Assembly (NCBI RefSeq): GCF_026183675.1
Contig: NZ_JAPIVK010000001.1
Coordinates: 131,498-195,497 of the forward strand
From: Microbulbifer halophilus
Lineage (GTDB): Bacteria > Pseudomonadota > Gammaproteobacteria > Pseudomonadales > Cellvibrionaceae
DNA length: 64,000 bases
Direction: 5' to 3'
Shown here: positions 38,963 through 55,518 of the stretch, piece by piece
Layout: every line of letters starts with the position of its first letter
Numbering within the stretch: the first letter of the stretch is position 1
Translations under genes and position numbers: made by a program
The notes under the pieces: model-generated
What the model saw: only the letters and a program-made list of their open reading frames with translations
What the model was told of the DNA's origin: nothing
Database searches by the model: none

Positions 38963-39517
38963 ATGATAAGAAAAACCCTGCTCACCCTGCTGCTGTGCCT
39001 GCCCGCTGTGGCCCAGTCGGCGCCGGATATCGACCCGGCGCTGAAGCGCGCCCTGAAAGAGGCGGTGACCGGGGCCGACAGTTTCACCGACCGCTTCGAC
39101 GCGGAAGTCTGGCTGATGGCCAAATCCCAGCCGCTGGCCCGCTATATCGACGAGCCCCAGGACCGTATGCACGTACTGAAAGCGGTGCACCGCGAGGCCA
39201 CCCTGGCCGGCCTGCGTCCGGAAATCGTGCTCGCCGTCATCCAGATAGAGAGCGCCTTCGATCCCTACGCCGTATCCCGCGTCGGTGCCCAGGGGATGAT
39301 GCAGGTGATGCCCTTCTGGAAAAACGAAATCGGCCGCCCGGAGGACAACCTGATCGATATGGACACCAACCTGCGCTACGGCTGCACCATCCTCAAACAC
39401 TATATCGGCAAGGCCGAGGGCAACCTGGCCAACGCGCTGGCCTATTACAATGGCAGTTACGGCCGCCATACCTATTCCAGCAAGGTGCTGGACGCCTGGG
39501 CGGAGCGCTGGCGCTAA
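38963..39517 (+). CDS. Lytic transglycosylase (SLT domain, GH23)
   Basis: A 184-residue exported murein-cleaving enzyme. The signal peptide is MIRKTLLTLLLCLPAVAQSA. The catalytic Glu is in LAVIQIESAFDPYAVSRVGA, followed by QGMMQVMPFW and the NLRYGCTILKHYIGKAEGNL and ALAYYNGSYG motifs of soluble lytic transglycosylases. A short, single-domain member. It lies 158 bp after proS, a common neighbour in Pseudomonas relatives. Confidence 0.92.
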   Translation: MIRKTLLTLLLCLPAVAQSAPDIDPALKRALKEAVTGADSFTDRFDAEVWLMAKSQPLARYIDEPQDRMHVLKAVHREATLAGLRPEIVLAVIQIESAFDPYAVSRVGAQGMMQVMPFWKNEIGRPEDNLIDMDTNLRYGCTILKHYIGKAEGNLANALAYYNGSYGRHTYSSKVLDAWAERWR

Positions 39518-39551
39518 TGTGGTGTCAGGTACGGATCGAGGGCCCCGGGGA

Positions 39552-40613
39552 ATGACAGCGGAAAGCAGCTACCTGTTCTTCACCGGCAGCGCCTGCGGCC
39601 TGTTGCTGCTGGCGGCAGCGCGGCTGGCGATCGGGTATCGGCAGCAGGCCGCGGGGCGCTGGCTGCTCCTGTTGCTGGCCGGGGTCTTCTGCTATCTGCT
39701 GCGACCACTGTTGCCGCTGGAAAGCCGTTTCATTGAATTCCTGCTCGATCTGCCCACCATCCTGGTGCCGGCGGCCTTCTGGCTTTTCGCGCACCTGCTC
39801 AGCAGCGAAGGCGAGCCTTTCCCGTGCTGGGGCTGGATTCCCGTGTCGCTGTCCGTCGCGATCAGCGTGGCCGCGGGCCATCTCGACTTCCCGCCATCTT
39901 CACGGTTACACGAAACCCTCTACGTGCTGTCGCAGCCACTGAAGCTGGGCCTGATCGCCGCCGGTATGCTGGCACTGCTGCAGCGCTACCAGTCGGACCT
40001 GGTGGCGGCGCGCCGTCGCCTGCGGGCGCTGCTGCTGATTGCGGTGGGCGGCTATATGCTGATCGTGGTCTGCGCCGAGTTTCTGTTTTCCTACCAGCCG
40101 GTGCCCGCGGGCCTACCGACCCTGCACGCATTTCTCGCCAGCCTGCTGATCTTTGCCGCCTGCCTGTGGCTGCTGGCGCTGTCGCCAAACGCACTGACCG
40201 AATCCATGCCCCGGCCAACGGACAGCAACGCCGCTGCGGAGGAAACGCCGGCACCGCTGGACGAAGCCCAGCGACAACTGCTCGACAGGCTGGAGTCGCA
40301 TATGGCCGCTGGCGGCTACCGCCACACCGGGCTGACCATCCGCGAACTGGCGACACAACTGGACGCCCGCGAGTATGTACTGCGTACACTGATCAACCGC
40401 CACCTGGGCTACCGCAATTTCAATGAATACCTGAACCGCTTCCGTATCGACGAGGCCAGTGCGCGCCTCGCCAGTCCCGACCAGGCGCACCTGCCGGTGC
40501 TGTCGATTGCGCTGGATATCGGCTACCGCTCCCTGAGCCCGTTCAATGCCGCCTTCAAGCGTCGCCACAATATGACCCCCACGGAATTCCGGCGCGAACG
40601 GCTGCCGGCCTGA
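39552..40613 (+). CDS. Membrane-anchored AraC family regulator
   Basis: A 353-residue protein with about seven N-terminal membrane helices (residues 8-25, 35-52, 60-82, 93-108, 128-146, 162-180, 193-213) and a C-terminal AraC helix-turn-helix (about 255-350: LTIRELATQLDAREYVLRTL, LGYRNFNEYLNRFRIDEASA, IGYRSLSPFNAAFKRRHNMT). This 7TM-plus-AraC design couples an unknown membrane signal to transcription. It stands just upstream of the CBM2/dehydrogenase locus and might regulate it, which is inference from position only. GAGGG precedes the start. Confidence 0.88.
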   Translation: MTAESSYLFFTGSACGLLLLAAARLAIGYRQQAAGRWLLLLLAGVFCYLLRPLLPLESRFIEFLLDLPTILVPAAFWLFAHLLSSEGEPFPCWGWIPVSLSVAISVAAGHLDFPPSSRLHETLYVLSQPLKLGLIAAGMLALLQRYQSDLVAARRRLRALLLIAVGGYMLIVVCAEFLFSYQPVPAGLPTLHAFLASLLIFAACLWLLALSPNALTESMPRPTDSNAAAEETPAPLDEAQRQLLDRLESHMAAGGYRHTGLTIRELATQLDAREYVLRTLINRHLGYRNFNEYLNRFRIDEASARLASPDQAHLPVLSIALDIGYRSLSPFNAAFKRRHNMTPTEFRRERLPA

Positions 40614-41089: not shown

Positions 41090-44000
41090 ATGAAAACCCC
41101 CGCCTTGAACATCTCGTCATTATTTCTGTGCTCGTGTTTATGGGCATCGGTGCAGACAGCGACCGCCGCCACCTGCGAGTACACAGTGGGCAACGACTGG
41201 GGCTCGGGCGCGCAGGCCGCGATCCGTATCACCAACGACGGCGAAAGCGCCATCGACGGCTGGGAAGTCCAGTGGGAATACGGCGATGGCAGCGTCCTGA
41301 CCGACAGCTGGAATGCCAATGTCTCCGGCGACAATCCCTACACCGCCAGCAACCTGTCGTGGAACGGCAGCATCCAGCCCGGGCAGTATGCCGAGTTGGG
41401 CCTGCAGGTGAGCAACGGAGCGGACGGCGCCGCGATACCGGAGATAACCGGCCCGGTTTGCGACGGCGGCGGCAATTCGAGTTCCAGCTCTAGCTCCTCG
41501 TCGAGTTCCAGCAGCAGTTCTTCGTCGAGCAGTTCCAGTTCGAGCAGCGGTGGCCCCAGCGGCCCACCGCCAGCAGTGGAGATAGAGCGGGCCTTCCCGA
41601 ACCTGACCTTCAGCCAGCCACTGGGGTTGATGCAGGCACCGGGGGACGATTCGCGCTGGTACCTGCTGGAAAAAACCGGCATGGTCTACTGGATCGACGC
41701 CAACAACAGCGCCACATCCACCAAGACCCCCTACCTGGACCTGTCCGGCCTGGTGGACACCGCGGTCGAGGGCGGCCTGCTGGGGATGGCCTTCCACCCG
41801 GACTACCAGAACAACGGCCAGGTGTACCTGTCGTTTACCACAGCGGATTCGGAGCCGATGACATCGGTCGTCGCCCGCTATACCGAGAATGCCAGTGGCA
41901 CCGCCCTGGACGCCGGTTCGCGCCAGGACCTCCTCACCCTGCAGCAGCCCTACGCCAACCACAACGGCGGCCAGATCGCGTTCGGGCCCGACGGCTACCT
42001 GTATATCGGCTTCGGCGACGGCGGTTCGGCCAACGATCCCGAGGCCAACGGCCAGGACACCAGTACCTGGCACGGCTCCATGCTCCGGATCGATGTGGAC
42101 AGCGGCTCCCCCTACGGCATTCCCACGGACAACCCCTTCGCCAACGGCGGCGGCCAGCCGGAGATCTACGCCTACGGCCTGAGAAACCCCTGGCGCTGGA
42201 GCTTCGACAGGCTTACCGGCGACCTGTGGCTGGCGGATGTGGGCCAAGCGGAGTACGAGGAAGTCGATATTATCGAAAACGGCGGCAACTACGGCTGGCG
42301 TTGCCGGGAAGGATTCCACACCACCTCCAACAGCTGCGACAGCAGCGGTCCCTACGACGACCCCCTGTTCGAGTACGATCACAGCCAGGGGCAGTCGATC
42401 ACCGGCGGCTATGTCTATCGCGGCTCGCAGATCGCCGGCATGGGCGGCGCCTACCTGTTCGCCGACTACCAGAGCGGCAGGGTCTGGGCCTATACCGACG
42501 CCATGCACCAGCTGTTGGACACGGACCTGAGCATCACCTCCTTCGGCCAGTCCAACAGCGGTGAGCTCTACCTGGTGGATATCGCCGGCGGCACCCTGCA
42601 CCGGATCGCCGCCGAGGGCGGCGGCAGCTCCAGCTCGTCGTCCAGCAGCAGCGCCTCTTCGAGCGCCAGCAGTTCCAGCTCGAGCAGTTCCACGTCCAGT
42701 AGCTCGACGTCCAGCAGCTCCTCCAGCGGCAACCCCGGCGGCGGTGACGTAAGCTGCTCGATCACCAGCCAGAATGTCTGGGGCAACGGCTACCAGCTGG
42801 ATATCACCGTCACCAACGGCGGCAACAGCGCCGTGGACAGCTGGGAGATCACCCTGCCGTTCAGCGAGCCGCCGCAGGTCACCGGCAGCTGGAACGTGGA
42901 CCTGAGTGTCTCGGACAACACGGCCACGGCCAGGGACGTGGGCTGGAACGGCAGCCTCTCGCCCGGCGGCAGCGCCTCGTTCGGCTTCCAGGGCGACCAC
43001 GACGGCAGCTTCACCGTGCCCGACTGCCTGGGGCCGGGCGGCTCTTCGAGCAGCAGTTCCAGCTCCTCGTCCAGCAGCTCCAGTTCGTCGTCCAGCTCCT
43101 CCAGCGGCGGCACCGGCAATATGACCGGCTCCGAAATCTATGCCAGCGACTGCGCCCACTGCCACGGCTTCGCGGGTGAAGGCGGCTCCGTGGGCATACC
43201 GCTGACCACGCCCCAGGACCTGGACTTCATGATCGGCTTTATCGAGGACGCCATGCCCCAGGGCCAGCCGGAAGTCTGCGGCGCGGACTGCGCGGACAAG
43301 GTGGGCAACTATATCGCCGACACCTTCTGGGAAGACCAGCAACCGCCCAACTGCAGCATGGTCCGCTACGGCGCCCGCCAGCTGAAGATACTGACCCGGT
43401 CCGAGTACCAGAACACTGTCGAGGACCTGCTGGGAGTCGATTACGACGCATCCGGCGAGCTGTCCGAAGACAGCACGGTGGGCTACTTCGCCAACAACAC
43501 CCACGCCGCCATCGTCACCGGCACCTACGACCGCTACCTGACGGCGGCGGAGGAAATCGCGGCCTGGTCCGCGGCGCGCGATTACGCGCCGGCACTGAGC
43601 TGTGATTCCTTCAACCAGGACTGCGTGGACCAGTTTATCGGCGACTTTGCCCCCAGAGTGTTCCGCCGCCCGCTGGACAGCCAGGAAGTGACGACCTACA
43701 CGGAGCTGGCCAACGGCACCTTCACCGAGGGCGACGTGCACACCGGCATCCAGCTCGCCCTGATGACCATGCTGTCCTCGCCGCAGTTCCTCTACCGCCA
43801 CGAGCTGGGCGAATCCAACCCGGCCAACAGCGAACTCGATGCGGACGCCTTCGAGCTGACCTCCCACGAAATGGCCACCTGGTTGAGCTATTCCTTCACC
43901 GGCTCCACACCGGACGATACCGCCCTGCAGAAGGCGGCCAACGACCAGTTGCGCGACCCGGCACAGATCCGGCAGGAAGCGCAGCGGTTGCTGGACCTGT

Positions 44001-44965
44001 CCGACGCCCGGGAAACCATGGGCAATTTCGTCGGCAGCTGGCTGGATACCGACAACCTGGAAAAATCCCCCAAGGATGCGGCCACCTGGCCCGGCTTCGA
44101 GGAAGTGGCGCCGCACATGGAGCGGGAGATCCGCGAAGTGTTCGCGGAGGTGATGCTGAGCGGCGAGGAATCCTTCGCCTCCCTCTACGACGCCAACTGG
44201 ACCTTCGTCAACGGGCCGCTGGCGCAGCACTACGGTATCGGCGGCGTCTCCGGCGATAGCTTCCAACGGGTCACCACCAGCGATCGCGGCGGTATCCTCA
44301 CCAGCGGCGCCTTTATGGCGCGCTGGGCCGAGCGGGTCGAGACCTCGCCCATCCGGCGCTCGGTGCGCGTGCGCCGCCGCATGCTGTGCCAGGACCAGCC
44401 GGACCCGCCCGCCGGCATCGCCGAGAGCCGCGCGGAACGCCTCGAGGAACTGGCGGACCTGATCGCCGACCCGGCGACCACCAATCGCGATAAATATGAA
44501 GCACTGACGTCCGTTTCGCCCTGCCTCAACTGCCACCGGGAGTGGATCAACCCGCTCGGTGGCGGCATGGAGGACTTCGACTCCGTGGGCAACCCGCGCA
44601 GCGTCGACCTGAACGGCAACGTGATCGACGCCAGCGGGGAGCTGTACGCACCCGATGTATTGAGCAACCGCGGCGAGTCGATCGCGTTCGAGGGCGCCCG
44701 GGGGCTGGGCCAGGTACTGGCGACCCTGCCCAGCGCACAATCCTGCGTATCGCAGAACCTCTTCCGCTTCATGCTCGGCGTCGGACACGACAGCATCGAC
44801 AACATGAATCCCGAGGGGCGGGAACTCGATCCGGTCGAAGAGGACGGTTACACCTGCACGGTGCAGGATATGACCGACACCCTCGTGGAACAGGATCCCC
44901 GCACGATGCTCGAGCGCATGAGCACACTGCAGGCGGTGCGTTACCGCAAGGCGTGGGCGCGGTGA
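41090..44965 (+). CDS. Secreted CBM2 / sugar dehydrogenase / CBM2 / cytochrome c / DUF1592-series fusion protein
   Basis: A 1291-residue exported multidomain protein starting MKTPALNISSLFLCSCLWAS (signal peptide to about 27). In order: CBM2 carbohydrate-binding module (about 28-125); 24-serine linker (130-153); glucose/sorbosone-dehydrogenase beta-propeller of the PQQ type (about 160-510, with LLGMAFHPDYQNNGQVYLSF and YGLRNPWRWSFDRLTGDLWL); Ser/Thr/Ala linker (513-546); second CBM2 (about 553-648); serine linker (652-672); cytochrome c with CAHCH at 688-692; then the DUF1587, DUF1595, DUF1592, DUF1588 and DUF1585 series (about 765-1291), including a second haem motif CLNCH at 1145-1149. It should bind cellulose or another insoluble glycan and pass electrons from a sugar to haem. 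Cellvibrio secretes comparable CBM2-bearing redox proteins. The ATG has AGGA upstream; a longer frame from 41051 is unlikely. Confidence 0.88.
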   Translation: MKTPALNISSLFLCSCLWASVQTATAATCEYTVGNDWGSGAQAAIRITNDGESAIDGWEVQWEYGDGSVLTDSWNANVSGDNPYTASNLSWNGSIQPGQYAELGLQVSNGADGAAIPEITGPVCDGGGNSSSSSSSSSSSSSSSSSSSSSSSSGGPSGPPPAVEIERAFPNLTFSQPLGLMQAPGDDSRWYLLEKTGMVYWIDANNSATSTKTPYLDLSGLVDTAVEGGLLGMAFHPDYQNNGQVYLSFTTADSEPMTSVVARYTENASGTALDAGSRQDLLTLQQPYANHNGGQIAFGPDGYLYIGFGDGGSANDPEANGQDTSTWHGSMLRIDVDSGSPYGIPTDNPFANGGGQPEIYAYGLRNPWRWSFDRLTGDLWLADVGQAEYEEVDIIENGGNYGWRCREGFHTTSNSCDSSGPYDDPLFEYDHSQGQSITGGYVYRGSQIAGMGGAYLFADYQSGRVWAYTDAMHQLLDTDLSITSFGQSNSGELYLVDIAGGTLHRIAAEGGGSSSSSSSSSASSSASSSSSSSSTSSSSTSSSSSSGNPGGGDVSCSITSQNVWGNGYQLDITVTNGGNSAVDSWEITLPFSEPPQVTGSWNVDLSVSDNTATARDVGWNGSLSPGGSASFGFQGDHDGSFTVPDCLGPGGSSSSSSSSSSSSSSSSSSSSSGGTGNMTGSEIYASDCAHCHGFAGEGGSVGIPLTTPQDLDFMIGFIEDAMPQGQPEVCGADCADKVGNYIADTFWEDQQPPNCSMVRYGARQLKILTRSEYQNTVEDLLGVDYDASGELSEDSTVGYFANNTHAAIVTGTYDRYLTAAEEIAAWSAARDYAPALSCDSFNQDCVDQFIGDFAPRVFRRPLDSQEVTTYTELANGTFTEGDVHTGIQLALMTMLSSPQFLYRHELGESNPANSELDADAFELTSHEMATWLSYSFTGSTPDDTALQKAANDQLRDPAQIRQEAQRLLDLSDARETMGNFVGSWLDTDNLEKSPKDAATWPGFEEVAPHMEREIREVFAEVMLSGEESFASLYDANWTFVNGPLAQHYGIGGVSGDSFQRVTTSDRGGILTSGAFMARWAERVETSPIRRSVRVRRRMLCQDQPDPPAGIAESRAERLEELADLIADPATTNRDKYEALTSVSPCLNCHREWINPLGGGMEDFDSVGNPRSVDLNGNVIDASGELYAPDVLSNRGESIAFEGARGLGQVLATLPSAQSCVSQNLFRFMLGVGHDSIDNMNPEGRELDPVEEDGYTCTVQDMTDTLVEQDPRTMLERMSTLQAVRYRKAWAR

Positions 44966-45122: not shown

Positions 45123-45191
45123 CGCCCCCAGCCTCTCTTATCGGCAACAAGAGACGTGAGCAGTTACCGCAAAAATAAAAAGGTTCAGGTC

Positions 45192-46433
45192 ATGGCAAAG
45201 CGACACAAGAACGTATTCGACAAAAGACGTCGGGATTTACTGAAAATTTTCGCAGCCGCCGGTATCACCCGGGGGCTGCTGCAGGCCTCGCCGCTGGTCG
45301 CGGGCATGATGGCCGCCCGCCGGGCGGAAGCGCAGACCGGGCCCAACAAGTCGGTGGTCATCTACGTGCCCGACGGCGCCCTCCCCGAACACTGGTTTCC
45401 CAACAGCGACCTCACCAGTTTCGGCGCCATGTCCCAGCCCTACAGCAGCGTCGCCGGCGAGTGCAACTTCCTGCGGAGCATGAGCCACCACCGCGGCGGC
45501 CACGGCGTGATGCCCACCATCATCAACAACAGTTGGGGCGGCGACAGTTTCGACGTCAACATGGGCCGGATCCTCGGCGGCGACCTGCCCTTCACCTACG
45601 TCAACCTGGGGGTACACAGCAACGGCAACGGCACCCTCACCAAGGACAACGGCTCGGAAGTCCCGTTTGAGGACAATCCCTTCAATGCCTTCAACCAACT
45701 GTTCGGCAACCTGCAGGGCGGCGGTGGCGATCCCAAGCTGAACGCGGTGGATGCACATCTCGAAGCGGCCAATGCCCTGAAAACGAAACTGGGCAACTAC
45801 GAACAGCAGCGCCTGGATTCGCACCTGACCGCCATCGAGGAAACCCAGCAGCGCCTGCAGGACCTGGCCGGCGGCGGCCTCTCCTGCGGCGGCGCCACGG
45901 AGCCCGATCCCTTCCCGATCGAGTTTTCCACTTTCCAGCAGCAGGCGGAACTGCAGGCGGATATCATCACACTGGCGCTGGAGTGCAACCTGACCGCCTC
46001 CTGCTCCCTGGCACTCGGCAACGACGGCGCCGAGTTTGCGCTGCCCTACCTGGATTTCAAGGATACCTACCACAACTCGATCCACGGCGGTAACGGTGGC
46101 GACCCCACCTACCCCCACTACCGGGAGACGCGCGCCCACCTGAGCAGCCTGTCAGCCATCCTGATCGGGAAACTCAGGGACCGCGGGCTGCTCGACAGCA
46201 CCATCGTCTGCGAGGTCTCCGATATGGGCAACGGCGACGCCCACGGCAGCAACGACATCCCGCTGATCATGGCCGGCGGTGGCGGCACCATCCAGCGCGG
46301 CGTGTCCAATGCCGGCAGCGCCGCCTATACGCCCCTGCACCAGGTACACACCGCCGCAGTGGCACTGCAGGCCGACCAGCACCCGGCCTACCAGGGCTAT
46401 GAGAGCGAAGTGATTCCGGGTGTTCTGGCCTGA
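45192..46433 (+). CDS. DUF1552 (HXXSHH family) exported protein
   Basis: A 413-residue protein with a twin-arginine-like leader (KRRRDLLKIFAAAGITRG) and Ala-rich cleavage region near AEA. The DUF1552 body includes VVIYVPDGALPEHWFP, the signature here RSMSHHRGGHG (Arg where the family name has His), and the C-terminal DMGNGDAHGSNDIPLIMAGG. In planctomycetes and myxobacteria DUF1552 genes sit beside DUF1592/1588/1585 cytochrome genes, exactly as here, so the two products very likely act together. The biochemical role of DUF1552 is not known. Start at 45192 (MAKRHKN) is preferred over 45156. Confidence 0.88.
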   Translation: MAKRHKNVFDKRRRDLLKIFAAAGITRGLLQASPLVAGMMAARRAEAQTGPNKSVVIYVPDGALPEHWFPNSDLTSFGAMSQPYSSVAGECNFLRSMSHHRGGHGVMPTIINNSWGGDSFDVNMGRILGGDLPFTYVNLGVHSNGNGTLTKDNGSEVPFEDNPFNAFNQLFGNLQGGGGDPKLNAVDAHLEAANALKTKLGNYEQQRLDSHLTAIEETQQRLQDLAGGGLSCGGATEPDPFPIEFSTFQQQAELQADIITLALECNLTASCSLALGNDGAEFALPYLDFKDTYHNSIHGGNGGDPTYPHYRETRAHLSSLSAILIGKLRDRGLLDSTIVCEVSDMGNGDAHGSNDIPLIMAGGGGTIQRGVSNAGSAAYTPLHQVHTAAVALQADQHPAYQGYESEVIPGVLA

Positions 46434-46592: not shown

Positions 46593-47465
46593 ATGCCCAA
46601 CATGCTCGAGAATAAAAACACAGGCCTCATCGCACTGGCTGTCGCACTCGCCTGCGCGGGCAGCTGTTCGAAGCCCGACGAGGACACTGCGTCACCGCAG
46701 GGCCGCCTCAACGACACCGGTATCACCTGGGGCGCCGACTACCCCCGCGGCGTCAACGACGACTGCAGCGCCAGCATCGACAAAAAGCTGCTGCCCGAGG
46801 GAGACGCCATTGCCGGCGATATTCTCAGCCAACAGGATTGCAGGCACGGCGGCGACGCCGATGGCGCTGCGAGCTTCGCCTATCGCAAAATCGACGCCGG
46901 AGGCGAACCGCTGCCCGCGGATGCACAGGACTGGCAGTGCGTGCTCGACGAAACCACCGGCCTGGCCTGGGAGATAAAACAGCCGGGCGACGGGACCTAC
47001 GGCAACCGGGGCATGCACGACGCAGACGATGTCTACACCTGGTACAACCCCAACAAAGGCGTCAACGGCGGCGCCATCGGCGACTGGAACAGCCGCTATG
47101 CGCAGTGTACCGGCTACCTCGAAGGCCAGCCCGCCACCTACTGCAACATCGAGGAATACGTCAGTCGTATCAACCGGGGCGGCCTGTGCGGGCATAGGGA
47201 TTGGCGTGTTCCCAGTCTCGACGAGCTGGCCAGCCTGGTGCACTTCGGACGCAGTGCGCCGGCCGCCGACACCACCTATTTTCCCAACACCAAAAGCGGT
47301 TTCTACTGGAGCCATTCACCGGACGCAAAACTGCAGGAGCGAGCCTGGGCGGTCAACTTCCAGTTCGGCTATTCCGCACCCATGCCGCGCAATAACGGCC
47401 GCCACCTGCGCCTGGTGAGGGACTGGAAGGGCGATAAAAACCGACCCGGAACGGGGGCCGAATGA
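46593..47465 (+). CDS. DUF1566 (Lcl C-terminal domain) lipoprotein
   Basis: A 290-residue exported protein. The N-terminus (IALAVALACAGSCSKPDED) is a lipoprotein-like signal with Cys near residue 25. The C-terminal domain (about 110-280) shows the DUF1566 pattern: DETTGLAWEIKQ, a DDVYTWYNPNKG insert, CGHRDWRVPSLDELASLVHF, and a closing WAVNFQFGYSAPMPRNNGRH-type strand ending LRLVRD. Such domains resemble C-lectin-like surface folds; the role is unknown. It overlaps the next gene by ATGA. Confidence 0.8.
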   Translation: MPNMLENKNTGLIALAVALACAGSCSKPDEDTASPQGRLNDTGITWGADYPRGVNDDCSASIDKKLLPEGDAIAGDILSQQDCRHGGDADGAASFAYRKIDAGGEPLPADAQDWQCVLDETTGLAWEIKQPGDGTYGNRGMHDADDVYTWYNPNKGVNGGAIGDWNSRYAQCTGYLEGQPATYCNIEEYVSRINRGGLCGHRDWRVPSLDELASLVHFGRSAPAADTTYFPNTKSGFYWSHSPDAKLQERAWAVNFQFGYSAPMPRNNGRHLRLVRDWKGDKNRPGTGAE

Positions 47466-48001
47466 TTAACAGGGTATGGAAAGCAGGGGTCTTGTCGATA
47501 TTGCTGACAGCTGCCTGCCACGCGCAGGCCGATCAGCTTTGCAAGACCGGACACATCGCGACGACAGCGCCGCCCTCGCGCTATCAACAGAAGGAAGACA
47601 GCACTGTTGTCGATACAAAAACCGGTTTGATGTGGCGCACCTGCCAGGAAGGTGTCGCGGGAAAATCCTGCGGCGAAGGTGCACCCCTGATGTTGACGTG
47701 GGCCGAGGCGCTGGCCTACGTGCCGACTTTCAACCGGGAGGGCGGTTTCGCTGGCTACAGGGACTGGCGACTGCCGAATATCCGCGAGCTGAGTAGCCTG
47801 ATCGAACCTCAATGCGTCGCCCCCGCGATCAACCTGACAGTTTTCCCAAATACGGCCCCGGTGGATGTCTGGTCCTCGTCGCCGTCCCGTTTCCATAGCC
47901 ATTATTCCTGGCTCGTCGATTTCGAAACCGGAGCATTTACCTACGGCGAACGGGCCAGGCCTAAAGCCATTCACCTGGTGCGCGATCGCCTTGTAAGGTG
48001 A
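47462..48001 (+). CDS. DUF1566 domain protein, second copy
   Basis: A 179-residue exported protein with signal peptide (VLSILLTAACHAQA) and one DUF1566 domain: VVDTKTGLMWRTCQEG, LTWAEALAYVPTF, GYRDWRLPNIRELSSLIEPQ, WSSSPSRFHSHYSWLVDFET and the ending IHLVRD. It is a shorter relative of the preceding gene and overlaps it by four bases, so the two are translationally coupled and probably form a pair. Confidence 0.82.
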   Translation: MINRVWKAGVLSILLTAACHAQADQLCKTGHIATTAPPSRYQQKEDSTVVDTKTGLMWRTCQEGVAGKSCGEGAPLMLTWAEALAYVPTFNREGGFAGYRDWRLPNIRELSSLIEPQCVAPAINLTVFPNTAPVDVWSSSPSRFHSHYSWLVDFETGAFTYGERARPKAIHLVRDRLVR

Positions 48002-51157: not shown

Positions 51158-52468
51158 ATGTTTCTGCCCCGCCCGGTTGCTTTCATCTGCTTCGCGCTGA
51201 CATTGACTGCCTGTAGCGATATGGCCCGCCTGCCGGTGTCCGCGGGAACCGGTCCCAACCCCGTATTGCCGCCACCTGCGAAATCCCTGATTCCGACGGT
51301 CAATATCGCGCCGGCCAGGGGCTGGCCCGAAGGGGCCGGGCCGGTTGCGGCCACCGGTACCGAGGTGGTGGCCTTCGCCGGGGCACTCGATCATCCTCGC
51401 TGGCTCTATGTGCTCCCCAACGGGGATGTGCTGGTGGCCGAAACCAACCGACCGCCAAAAAAAGCGGGCGGGTTCAGGGCCTGGATTGGTCGCCTGCTGA
51501 TGAAGAAGGCCGGTGCGGGCGGCGAGAGCGCCAATCGCATTACCCTGCTGCGCGATACCGACGGCGACGGCGTGGCGGATCGGCGTTCGGTATTCCTCGA
51601 CGGGTTGAATTCCCCCTTCGGCATGGCGCTGGTCGGCAAGGATTTCTATGTGGCCAATACCGATGCCGTGCTGCGCTTCCCCTACGAGACGGGCCAGACC
51701 CGGATCACTGCAGCGGGGGAAACCATCGTCGAATTGCCGGCCGGCCCCATCAATCAGCACTGGACCAAAAGCCTGATCGCCAGTCCCGACGGCAACCGGC
51801 TCTATGTGGGCGTGGGATCGGACAGCAACGCCGGCGAATACGGCCTGGAAAGGGAACGGGGGCGCGCCGCCATCTGGGAAATAGACCTCCGAAGCGGCGA
51901 TCATCGCCTCTTTGCCTCGGGGCTGCGCAACCCGGTCGGCCTGGCCTGGCAACCCGACAGCGGCGAGCTCTGGGTGGCGGTCAACGAACGCGATGCCCTG
52001 GGCAGCGACCTGGTGCCGGACTACATGACCTCCGTGCGGGATGGCGGCTTCTACGGCTGGCCCTACAGTTACTTCGGCCAGCACCTGGACCAGCGGGTCG
52101 AGCCGCAGCACCCCGACCTGGTTGCCAGCGCCATTGTCCCCGACTACGCCCTGGGACCGCATACCGCTTCCCTGGGCCTGGCCGCGGCCGAGGGCAATTC
52201 CCTGCCCGGACGTTTCAGCAAGGGCATGTTCATCGGCCAGCACGGCTCCTGGAATCGCGAACCCCGCAGCGGTTACAAGGTGATATTCGTGCCCTTTGAA
52301 GACGGCCTGCCCGCCGGTCAACCGGTGGATGTGCTGAGCGGGTTTGTCAGCGCGGATGGCGAGGCATTCGGCAGGCCGGTGGGCGTGGCGATTGACCGGC
52401 AGGGCGGATTGCTGGTGGCGGACGATGTGGGCAATGTCATCTGGCGGGTGCATCGCGCGCGCCCGTAG
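51158..52468 (+). CDS. Sorbosone-dehydrogenase-like PQQ lipoprotein
   Basis: A 436-residue exported beta-propeller. The N-terminus ([17 protein letters not shown]) is a lipoprotein signal with lipobox LTAC. Family motifs include [80 protein letters not shown] and [20 protein letters not shown]. Such proteins are PQQ-type sugar or aldose dehydrogenases of the periplasm. It is the second propeller of this general type in the window, but free-standing. The stop codon lies in a REP-like repeat. Confidence 0.88.
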
Positions 52469-52496
52469 GATGGGCAAAGCGAAGCGTGCCCATCAG
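52466..52496. repeat. REP-like palindrome, GGATGGGCAAAGCG family
   Basis: TAGGATGGGCAAAGCGAAGC followed by GTGCCCATCAG. It supplies the stop codon of the dehydrogenase gene and touches the 3' end of the convergent GH43 gene. Confidence 0.75.
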
Positions 52497-54133
52497 CCGT
52501 AGTCGCCCACGTCTGGTGTGTGTTCCCGGTATTCGAAGAACCCGAAATCCGCCGGCCGACACCTGCCGGACGCATCCTGGCAGGCCATGCCGACAAAGGC
52601 GCCGGTAAAACTCTTGCCCTCGCCGCGGCCGGCTTCGTCGGAAATCAACGAGTAATCCAGGCAGACGTCTATGTGCTGCCAGTCCTCCCCGTTCAGGGAC
52701 CAGGAGAAAAAGAGCTTTTCAAAAGCTACCTCCGCGCGCAGGTAGAGGACACGGCCCTTCGGCAGGGGAATTTCCTTTGCGCCTTCGTGTGGATAGTTCA
52801 GGTTCCACTGCTGCTGCCCTTCGCAGCTCAGGATGGCGAGATGCTTTTCTCGGGCCTCGTTGCAGCTCACGTGCAAGTAGTGAAACTTGTGCGCGTTGTA
52901 GTAGCAGACCAGGCCGGCCGACTGCTGGAAGCTGTCCGGCTCGAATTCCATTTTGGTGGTGGCGGTGAAGCAAAAGGCCTGTTGCCGCCGCCCCACCAGT
53001 GCCTGCGTGAACCAGGAGCCGATGGATTCGTGCCCGTACAGGCGCAGGTAACCGGGTCTGTCTTTCAGTGAGAAGACGGATTCGTCCCGGGGAATACGCA
53101 GCCACTGGAAATCCAGCGGCAGGTTGCCGCCATCGAAAGTGGTTCTGGCCGGGGTTTCCGGCCAGGGGTGCGGCGGCAGGTCCGGCGGGTCGACGTCCCG
53201 ATCGGGGTCGGTGCCGCCGTTGTCGAGGCGCAGCCAGCCATCGTCGTTCCAGTAGGCCTTTTGAATCGCGGTTTCCCGCCCCAGCGGGCAGCGGCGCTGA
53301 TCCGCGCCGCCGTGCAGGGACAGGGGGCGGCCGCACAGGTGCACGATATAGACCTCGCCGTGCCGGGTTTCCACCCAGTCGCCGTGGCCGGCGCGTTGCA
53401 GCGGCAGTTGCGGGTCATCCTTCGCCGTCACGATATGTTTGATCGGGTCCAGCTCGTAGGGACCGGTGAGATTTTTCGAGCGCGCCATGGTAATGGCGTG
53501 GTCGTAGCCGGTGCCGCCCTCGGCGGTCATCAGGTAGTAGTAGCCGTTGCGCCGGTAGAGGTGCGGCGCCTCGGTCAGGCGCAGATCCGTGCCCCCGAAA
53601 ATATTGCGCGCGGGGCCGACCAGTTTCTTTTCTTTCGGGGAATATTCCTGCAACAGTATGCCGTTGAAGGAGTGGCGGCCCGGGCGGATATCCCACTGCA
53701 TGTTGACCAGCCACTTGCGACCGTCGTCGTCGTGGAACAGGGAGGGGTCGAAGCCGCTGCTGTTGAGCGGCACCGGGTCGGACCAGCGACCGTCTATGGT
53801 GGCGCAAGTGGTGAGGTAATTGTGGCTGTCCTTGAAGGAACCCTCGTGGCGCTTTACGTCGGTGTACACCAACCAGAAAAGGCCATCGCAGTAGGACAGG
53901 CAGGGCGCCCAGATACCGCCGGAGTCCGGGTTGCCGCGCATATCCAGCAGTTCGGCGCGGTCCAGCGGGCGCGCGACCAGGCGCCAGTGCACCAGGTCCC
54001 GGGAGTGGTGGATCTGTACCCCGGGATACCACTCGAAGGTGGAGGTGGCGATATAGAAATCATCGCCGGCACGCACTATGGAGGGATCCGGATTGAAACC
54101 GGGCAGAATCGGGTTTGTGATCTTGCTGTTCAT
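52493..54133 (-). CDS. GH43 beta-xylosidase (XynB type)
   Basis: A 546-residue cytoplasmic glycosidase with no signal peptide. The five-bladed GH43 propeller begins MNSKITNPILPGFNPDPSIV, with catalytic base Asp16; the pKa-modulating Asp is in SSGFDPSLFHDDDG and the general-acid Glu in DLRLTEAPHLYRR. The C-terminal half (about 330-540) is the beta-sandwich of the XynB3/GH43_11 group. It should release xylose (or arabinose) from imported xylo-oligosaccharides. Its start overlaps the transporter stop by ATGA, forming an uptake-hydrolysis operon. Confidence 0.93.
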   Translation of the reverse strand: MNSKITNPILPGFNPDPSIVRAGDDFYIATSTFEWYPGVQIHHSRDLVHWRLVARPLDRAELLDMRGNPDSGGIWAPCLSYCDGLFWLVYTDVKRHEGSFKDSHNYLTTCATIDGRWSDPVPLNSSGFDPSLFHDDDGRKWLVNMQWDIRPGRHSFNGILLQEYSPKEKKLVGPARNIFGGTDLRLTEAPHLYRRNGYYYLMTAEGGTGYDHAITMARSKNLTGPYELDPIKHIVTAKDDPQLPLQRAGHGDWVETRHGEVYIVHLCGRPLSLHGGADQRRCPLGRETAIQKAYWNDDGWLRLDNGGTDPDRDVDPPDLPPHPWPETPARTTFDGGNLPLDFQWLRIPRDESVFSLKDRPGYLRLYGHESIGSWFTQALVGRRQQAFCFTATTKMEFEPDSFQQSAGLVCYYNAHKFHYLHVSCNEAREKHLAILSCEGQQQWNLNYPHEGAKEIPLPKGRVLYLRAEVAFEKLFFSWSLNGEDWQHIDVCLDYSLISDEAGRGEGKSFTGAFVGMACQDASGRCRPADFGFFEYREHTPDVGDYG

Positions 54134-55518
54134 AGCGTACTGGAAGACGGAACGGGTTGGGACAAATCACCGGCCGGAAGCGACTCCTGCCAGCCGCGGT
54201 TCAGTTTGTAAAAATGCAGACAGACGATCACCAGCGCTCCCGCAATGACGGAGCTGCCGGCAAAGGCGAAGACAATGCCGAACAGCGCCGGCCCGCTCTG
54301 TTCCACATTTGCCTGGTAACCGAAGAAAGCCAGCACCCAGCCGGTGAGGCCACCGCCGATGGAGTTGCCCAGTTTGAGGGCGAACAGCTGGCCGGCAAAA
54401 AACATGGCCATGGCCCCCTTGCCTACCGTTTTCACTCCGTAATCCACCGTATCGGGCACCGCGGAAAACAGCAGCGGCACGAACATCATGTGGAAATAGT
54501 TGGACAACATGGCCAGGGACAGCGACGGCAGCAGCCATTCCCGCGGTACCAGGAACACGAGAGCATTGGTGACGATGGTGCCGCACAGGGCCAGCTTCAT
54601 CACCTTCACCTTGCACAGCCCTTTCACCAGCCAGCCGGCGGTGAGGGCGCCGGCGACACCGGCGAGCATGGTCAGCCCCATAAACAGTGACAACAGGTTG
54701 GCGGTGTCGGCGAAGAAACCGCTCATATTGTTGATCAGGTAGTAATCCACGAAATAGGGCTTGGCCGCACTCTGCATGGCACCGCGGATCATGATGATCA
54801 GGGTCGCCAGGGCGACGAGCAGCCACTGGGAATTGCTGAACATGGCCTTCAGGTCGGCGGTGGGACTGACTTTCGGCGCGCTGTCGTCCGGCTGTATGCG
54901 CTCGCGGGTCAGCGCAAAACAGCCCAGGAAGCAGAGCACGGCGATGACCGCCATCACCGCCATGGCCAGGGGGAAGCCCAGTTGCGGGTTGTCGCCACCC
55001 AGCAGCGCCGCCAGCGGGAATATGGAAGTGGTCACCAGAAAGCCGCCCATCATGGCCATGGCGAAACGGTAGGTCTGCAGGTTGGCTCGCTCCTCGCTGT
55101 CCGCCGTCATCACCCCGCCCAGGGCCGAATAGGAAATATTCACGGCGGTGTAGGCGCTCATCAGCAGGGCATAGCTGATATAGGCGTAAACCAGCTTGGT
55201 GCCGGCATCGGAACCGGGGGTGATAAAGGCGGCCACGGCGAGCAGCCCGTAGGGAACCGCCACCCACAGCATCCAGGGCCGGTAGCGGCCGTGCCTGGAA
55301 CGGGTGCGATCGGCAATGGCCCCCATGATGGGATCGGTCACCGCATCGAACAGCCGCACCACCAGCATCAGGGTGCCGGCAGCGGCGGCGGTGATGCCGT
55401 AGACGTCGGTGTAGAAATACAGCAGGACGTTGATCACCGCCTGGAAGACGATATTGCTGGCGGTGTCGCCGAGACCGTAGCCCAGCTTCTCTTTGCGGCT
55501 CAGTGGGGCAGGCTTCAC
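54130..55518 (-). CDS. GPH-family glycoside-cation symporter (XynP-like)
   Basis: A 462-residue inner-membrane transporter with about twelve helices and the GPH/MelB signatures LGYGLGDTASNIVFQ, VVRLFDAVTDPIMGAIADRT and RSRHGRYRPWMLW near the N-terminus, and DTVDYGVKTVGKGAMAMFFA later. Paired with GH43, the likely substrate is a xylo- or arabinoxylo-oligosaccharide. A LacI-type operator lies 33 bp upstream. Confidence 0.92.
   Translation of the reverse strand: MKPAPLSRKEKLGYGLGDTASNIVFQAVINVLLYFYTDVYGITAAAAGTLMLVVRLFDAVTDPIMGAIADRTRSRHGRYRPWMLWVAVPYGLLAVAAFITPGSDAGTKLVYAYISYALLMSAYTAVNISYSALGGVMTADSEERANLQTYRFAMAMMGGFLVTTSIFPLAALLGGDNPQLGFPLAMAVMAVIAVLCFLGCFALTRERIQPDDSAPKVSPTADLKAMFSNSQWLLVALATLIIMIRGAMQSAAKPYFVDYYLINNMSGFFADTANLLSLFMGLTMLAGVAGALTAGWLVKGLCKVKVMKLALCGTIVTNALVFLVPREWLLPSLSLAMLSNYFHMMFVPLLFSAVPDTVDYGVKTVGKGAMAMFFAGQLFALKLGNSIGGGLTGWVLAFFGYQANVEQSGPALFGIVFAFAGSSVIAGALVIVCLHFYKLNRGWQESLPAGDLSQPVPSSSTL

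Follow-up and report, generated by a model that had tools for sequence, protein, structure and literature searches.

Which role could one polypeptide have that joins cellulose-binding modules, a propeller of the sugar dehydrogenase type and haem c motifs? The question is raised by a gene at 41090-44965 (+) of a 64,000-nucleotide stretch of Microbulbifer halophilus DNA (the window; assembly GCF_026183675.1, contig NZ_JAPIVK010000001.1, positions 131,498 to 195,497), which the initial annotation took for an exported protein with a sugar dehydrogenase of the pyrroloquinoline quinone (PQQ) type that may oxidize sugars at the glycan surface and pass electrons through two haems, perhaps to lytic polysaccharide monooxygenases (LPMOs). 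We conclude with moderate confidence that its product is a secreted, glycan-anchored haem protein of the Cbp2D/TERTU_3803 family, with the X132 region and a neighboring DUF1552 protein as its core and a propeller that works without PQQ, and that it supports growth on insoluble polysaccharide.

Identity of the window protein

The gene translates into 1291 amino acids (aa) with no internal stop, and the same domain order was found as single open reading frames (ORFs) in ten further Microbulbifer genomes (L031 to L036 and L038 to L041), as expected of one gene and not of a frameshifted pair; the M. litoralis block is 89% identical to that of the window. Over the Pfam cut-offs were two stretches of CBM2, a carbohydrate-binding module (CBM) (E 2.7e-49), GSDH (E 4.9e-45), a CBB3-type cytochrome (E 9.5e-8), DUF1592 (E 8.1e-37), DUF1587, DUF1595, and DUF1588. 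The initial annotation was thus right about both CBM2 modules, both CxxCH motifs, and the three linkers (the second with one break, at residue 522), and a signal peptide seen by eye agrees with the export it proposed. Its DUF series stood except for the last member, DUF1585 (PF07624), which gave no match in the window protein at E ≤ 0.1, a search in which HMMER filters may hide very weak matches; DUF1585 was found in some relatives. The product is probably a secreted, cellulose-anchored two-haem protein.

In an alignment over 1144 aa, it was 60% identical to TERTU_3803 of Teredinibacter turnerae (63% in GSDH, 62% in X132, and 40% in X183), and the neighboring genes resembled their T. turnerae counterparts as well (71% for DUF1552 and 52% for each of two Lcl_C proteins). 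We identified TERTU_3803 in L173, from another genus of the same family, because PDB entry 8q28 (TtX122A) lies there at aa 124-364, with the last aligned residue alone differing, in agreement with the published X122A construct (nucleotides 370-1089, aa 124-363; PMC10916295). The Pfam domains of L173 (CBM10, SGL, GSDH, CBM2, cytochrome, and DUF1587/1595/1592/1588) fit the description in that paper. Since its GSDH match (aa 727-1055) falls inside the pf08450-X173 construct (aa 415-1068), X173 is the GSDH domain.

A small DUF domain, printed as DUF1687, begins X132 in the Figure 1 legend of PMC10916295, and DUF1587 is named for Cbp2D in PMC8981238. Cbp2D of Cellvibrio japonicus Ueda107, for which we took L183 (7b21 matches its aa 470-560 almost letter-perfectly, and its length of 1122 aa agrees with PMC12542752), turned out to have the order CBM2-YceI-cytochrome-DUF1587-1595-1592-1588. 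From the Pfam series of Cbp2D and TERTU_3803 it follows that X132 is the DUF1592 series. By sequence comparison, then, the cytochrome and DUF1592 series of the initial annotation are the X183-X132 pair common with Cellvibrio Cbp2D, and the cytochrome domain also matched TtX183A and TtX183B (8q1v and 8q1w). The proposed kinship with Cellvibrio CBM2 redox proteins was therefore well founded. The fusion of a dehydrogenase with the DUF1592 series is less unusual than had been thought: papers of 2024 and 2025 on T. turnerae already report GSDH, cytochrome, and CBM in one chain (PMC10916295 and PMC12055684). The window protein is a new member of a known family with a published architecture, and its closest studied relative is TERTU_3803, from a shipworm symbiont. 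It combines a c-type X183 cytochrome, an X132 with a leading DUF1587 and one CxxCH, and glycan-binding modules (the two CBM2), with a DUF1552 gene alongside, the last being a family mark that we propose here.

The DUF1552 partner

Named loci were the best 80 of 324 relatives found by a pattern from the DUF1592 region; a further 30 stretches (L031 to L060) were picked from sequence matches, several being identical with genes of named loci. In all of the best 80 (80/80), a DUF1552 gene adjoined the X132 gene. At L045, L046, and L050, the DUF1552 neighbor was missed by single-sequence phmmer and found by profile. In C. japonicus, the DUF1552 gene lies behind cbp2E-cbp2D. It stands upstream rather than downstream at four loci (L136, L138, L139, and L144), all of them Polyangium or myxobacterial records.

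The likely start of the window DUF1552 gene is the ATG at 45192. Its twin arginine was invariant among the aligned relatives, and its predicted structure falls in the alkaline-phosphatase superfamily. The constant neighborhood and this fold would also suit a sulfatase- or phosphatase-like enzyme that the CBM-haem protein merely presents or protects. Among 23 aligned sequences, however, H306, H310, and H363 were invariant while the Asp of the SDxG motif varied, which makes a standard sulfatase center doubtful; the two haem motifs would also be left unexplained, and we consider such a division of labor very unlikely.

The two haems

The X132 alignment started from 116 candidates; after removal of two for span (L053 and the first gene of L059), one identical string, and 12 repeats of the same genes, 101 distinct genes remained. 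The X132 CxxCH was invariant (101/101), and no other His or Met column was: the best His was kept in 47/101, and the best Met, Met1010, in 82/101, with Leu, Phe, Ser, or Ala elsewhere. Arg859 and Glu905 are invariant as well. The X183 Met was kept in 21/24. Because this Met is mostly kept and X132 has no invariant second ligand, X183 would transfer electrons, and the haem of X132 may be free to react and hence catalytic, the least certain step of our reading. The 617-aa X183-X132 model (pLDDT 88; pTM 0.83) gave no Foldseek match at E ≤ 0.001, residues 3-78 alone being spanned by at least one-fifth of the VIA rows; we do not take this as a sign that X132 has a new fold.

Could the haems instead form an extracellular conduit that links the cell surface with a distant acceptor or donor, the protein being parked on the fibre without any glycan chemistry? 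X183 matches electron-transfer cytochromes, relatives have up to five CxxCH motifs, and the conclusions of PMC10916295 raise such a role for the TERTU proteins. This would, however, explain neither the constant DUF1552 neighbor nor an invariant X132 haem motif that has no invariant second His or Met ligand, and the window protein has only two haem motifs, with linkers between them and the anchors. A conduit thus seems unlikely to us.

The propeller and PQQ

The best PDB sequence match of the GSDH domain was hedgehog-interacting protein (HHIP; E 5.3e-36), with soluble glucose dehydrogenase (sGDH) behind (E 4.4e-25). The PF07995 match would place the domain in the GSDH family of six-bladed propellers, and "dehydrogenase" is accordingly a label for a fold assigned by family match. 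Near the domain end, R[IL]R was found in 5/5 displayed PDB enzymes and in two other GSDH genes of M. halophilus (L065 and L066); in sGDH, these arginines contact PQQ. The window domain has ITSFG at this place, and in the alignment the RxR motif was absent from it and from 23/23 assessable distinct genes (33 table rows less 9 repeats of the same genes gave 24, with L046 incomplete). The LRNP motif and NHNGG, with the putative catalytic His, are retained. A search of the M. halophilus genome (99.56% complete) found no match to PqqC or PqqD at E ≤ 0.001, and both occurred, on one contig, in 1 of 48 Microbulbifer genomes.

The Ttpf08450-X173 construct neither bound PQQ in isothermal titration calorimetry, with or without Ca, nor oxidized glucose, according to the available part of PMC10916295. 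Taken alone, the residue argument is weak, because the fungal AA12 enzyme CcSDH breaks the same rule, lacking several canonical PQQ residues and yet using PQQ (PMC4133262). The proposed PQQ-dependent sugar oxidation is therefore weakened by the published negatives, by the failure to find pqqC and pqqD, and by the absence of RxR, while the AA12 precedent keeps it alive; the window protein probably does not use PQQ.

The two other GSDH genes with RxR lie at 667-2463 of L065 and 1477-2721 of L066, and one has a CxxCH near its N terminus. Their products are perhaps fed by scavenged PQQ, as pqqC and pqqD were not found.

LPMO, cellulase, and the polysaccharide target

The CBM2-type locus is present in 11 of the 48 Microbulbifer genomes, and 13 have a second class, assigned by its open frame (1894-1934 aa), with GSDH in the frame shown for 10. 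Proteins of this class (L045 to L049; 1.9-2.3 kaa) join CBM26, GSDH, cytochrome, and the DUF1592 series, with DUF1552 beside, and CBM26 was present in 5/5 of those scanned, from five genera (one Microbulbifer, L048, and four others). Since they carry CBM26, the same core appears, on these domain matches, to be starch-targeted in the second class. To our knowledge, no bacterial LPMO active on starch has been described.

The LPMO10 family was found in 9/11 CBM2-type carriers versus 23/37 noncarriers (P = 0.29) and in 10/13 second-class carriers versus 22/35 noncarriers (P = 0.50), and the M. halophilus genome has two LPMO10 genes. GH9 was found in 11/11 CBM2-type carriers versus 13/37 noncarriers (P = 2.2e-4) and in 13/13 second-class carriers versus 11/35 noncarriers (P = 2.6e-5), all GH9 comparisons being uncorrected for phylogeny. 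In this genus, carriage of these loci goes with GH9 cellulase, not with LPMO.

On the reading of the initial annotation, the protein would be a PQQ sugar dehydrogenase at the glycan surface whose electrons pass via X183 and X132 to LPMOs. Such a protein would be a bacterial counterpart of fungal AA12, and an AA12 resemblance was earlier proposed for T. turnerae (PMC12055684). The GSDH fold, its retained motifs, the AA12 precedent, and LPMO10 in most carriers are consistent with this. Beyond the case against PQQ, however, LPMO10 was not found in 2/11 CBM2-type and 3/13 second-class carriers, and the X183 domains of TERTU_2913, a sister protein, did not drive their cognate LPMO, as stated in the available part of PMC10916295. 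These results speak against LPMO as a needed electron sink; as an obligatory partner, LPMO was rejected for want of an association in Microbulbifer. We regard this explanation as quite improbable.

At two further loci (L103, 2207-8719; L121, 4256-9319), GH5 cellulase domains are fused to the cytochrome-X132 core, in L103 together with esterase-type and CBM9 matches.

Proposed working and its significance

From the modules, family, synteny, predicted folds, and negative PQQ tests, found here or in print, we infer the export route, the cellulose target, X132 catalysis, and the roles of DUF1552 and the propeller as follows. The two CBM2 modules would hold the protein on crystalline glycan, where X132 (DUF1587-1595-1592-1588) and the presumably Tat-exported DUF1552 protein would form the working core. 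The X132 haem c, with no invariant second ligand, would be the most likely reactive center, and X183, the cytochrome whose Met is kept in most sequences, would shuttle single electrons and so feed or drain it. The GSDH-fold domain would be a PQQ-less, HHIP-like propeller, more likely a binder of glycan or of a partner protein. The system would help the cell to grow on insoluble polysaccharide, the CBM2 type on cellulose and the CBM26 type on starch, and would not serve LPMOs only.

Several points weigh against this reading. We know of no activity of any X132 domain. Met1010 could be the haem ligand in most X132 domains, and a ligand that is not invariant is no proof of an open haem. NHNGG is retained, PQQ might come from scavenging, and the T. 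turnerae construct could depend on domains that it lacked. GH9 occurs in 24/48 Microbulbifer genomes, half of the genus, and its association lacks the phylogenetic correction. CcSDH uses PQQ, as said above, and CjX183 did reduce LPMOs, albeit slowly (PMC8981238).

A bolder version would make X132 and DUF1552 an unrecognized polysaccharide-attacking unit, in which a haem c with an exchangeable second ligand oxidizes crystalline glycan and cannot work without DUF1552, while the modules at the N terminus (CBM2/GSDH, YceI, CBM26/GSDH, or GH5) can be exchanged and serve targeting or accessory roles; we consider this rather unlikely.

New here are the tie between the X183-X132 family and the DUF1592 series and the recognition of DUF1552 as a constant third gene beside cbp2D. 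Cbp2D and Cbp2E are important when C. japonicus grows on insoluble cellulose. Escherichia coli W carrying cbp2E, cbp2D, and lpmo10B with three cellulase genes grew on cellohexaose and carboxymethyl cellulose, while neither filter paper nor acid-swollen cellulose supported any pCEL strain; the authors suggest that Lpmo10B and/or Cbp2D/E were poorly active and that export was uncertain (PMC12542752). The available part of that paper lists cbp2E, cbp2D, lpmo10B, cel6A, cel3B, and cel5B for pCEL6, and no DUF1552 gene. Its absence could be one reason for the failure of pCEL6 on insoluble cellulose; export and haem maturation could be others. The DUF1552 link makes the question of Cbp2D/E activity addressable by gene deletion and co-expression, and an overlooked DUF1552 partner could help explain bacterial attack on insoluble plant fibres.

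Features and neighboring genes

Table 1. Features of the window locus, in window coordinates
Feature	Position	Strand	Basis
Gene, modular haem protein, kin of TERTU_3803	41090..44965	+	ORF, Pfam, alignment
Sec-type signal peptide, aa 1-26	41090..41167	+	judged by eye from sequence
CBM2 module 1, aa 27-124	41168..41461	+	Pfam PF00553
Polyserine linker 1, aa 130-153	41477..41548	+	sequence
GSDH-fold (HHIP-like) propeller, aa 176-467, X173 equivalent of TERTU_3803; PF07995	41615..42490	+	Pfam, sequence comparison
Polyserine-rich linker 2, aa 513-546	42626..42727	+	sequence
CBM2 module 2, ~aa 552-652	42743..43045	+	phmmer to 1exg (aa 552-651); Pfam CBM2
Polyserine linker 3, aa 652-672	43043..43105	+	sequence
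X183-type cytochrome c domain, aa 679-742, CxxCH 688-692	43124..43315	+	Pfam, PDB matches
DUF1587 (PSD3), first part of X132, aa 768-826	43391..43567	+	Pfam
DUF1595 (PSD5), aa 845-905	43622..43804	+	Pfam
DUF1592 (PSD4), aa 923-1050	43856..44239	+	Pfam
DUF1588 (PSCyt3), aa 1066-1171; haem motif CLNCH at 44522-44536 (aa 1145-1149)	44285..44602	+	Pfam
DUF1552 (HXXSHH) partner, Tat-type RR signal, alkaline-phosphatase-superfamily fold by model	45156..46433	+	Pfam, alignment, model
Lcl_C-domain protein 1, syntenic; N terminus lipoprotein-like by eye	46593..47465	+	Pfam, synteny
Lcl_C-domain protein 2, syntenic	47462..48001	+	Pfam, synteny

Several relatives encode the Lcl_C pair that follows the DUF1552 gene as a single ORF, and at some loci of the Cbp2D type (L077, L079, and L089) the pair is on the other strand. 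Upstream is an AraC-family regulator (39450-40613, +), with close relatives near the locus in L033 and L034 and no match in the other eight ortholog stretches of the genus. Farther on, a GH43 beta-xylosidase-type gene (52493-55518, -) adjoins a sugar-transporter gene of the major facilitator superfamily (51158-52468, +), and beside this pair lies a second window gene with a weak GSDH/DUF7133 match.

Comparison with known systems

The fungal AA12 enzyme CcSDH (PMC4133262) likewise joins a cellulose-binding module, a six-bladed propeller, and a cytochrome, with canonical PQQ residues partly missing; it differs in its CBM1, its PQQ activity, and its AA8 cytochrome (b-type per PMC8981238), whereas the window cytochrome is c-type, with CxxCH. 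No AA12 chain was among the 22 PDB sequences matching the window protein at E ≤ 0.01, in a library whose AA12 content was not checked. Planctomycete-type PSCyt3/PSD proteins (PMC5615132) also have PSCyt and PSD in one chain, CBMs in some cases, and a conserved neighbor family; unlike the window protein, they have other CBMs and are predicted to be periplasmic or cytoplasmic, and the available part of that paper names no GSDH fusion.

C. japonicus Cbp2D (PMC8981238 and PMC12542752) shares CBM2, X183, X132, and the downstream DUF1552 gene, but YceI/X158 replaces the GSDH propeller and second CBM2, and cbp2E precedes cbp2D. TERTU_3803 (PMC10916295; secretome homologue in PMC12055684) has its own N terminus of CBM10, X122, and an SGL propeller, where the window protein has a CBM2 and no SGL or X122 match; GSDH/X173, CBM2, X183, and X132 follow in the same order in both, and both loci continue with DUF1552-Lcl_C-Lcl_C.

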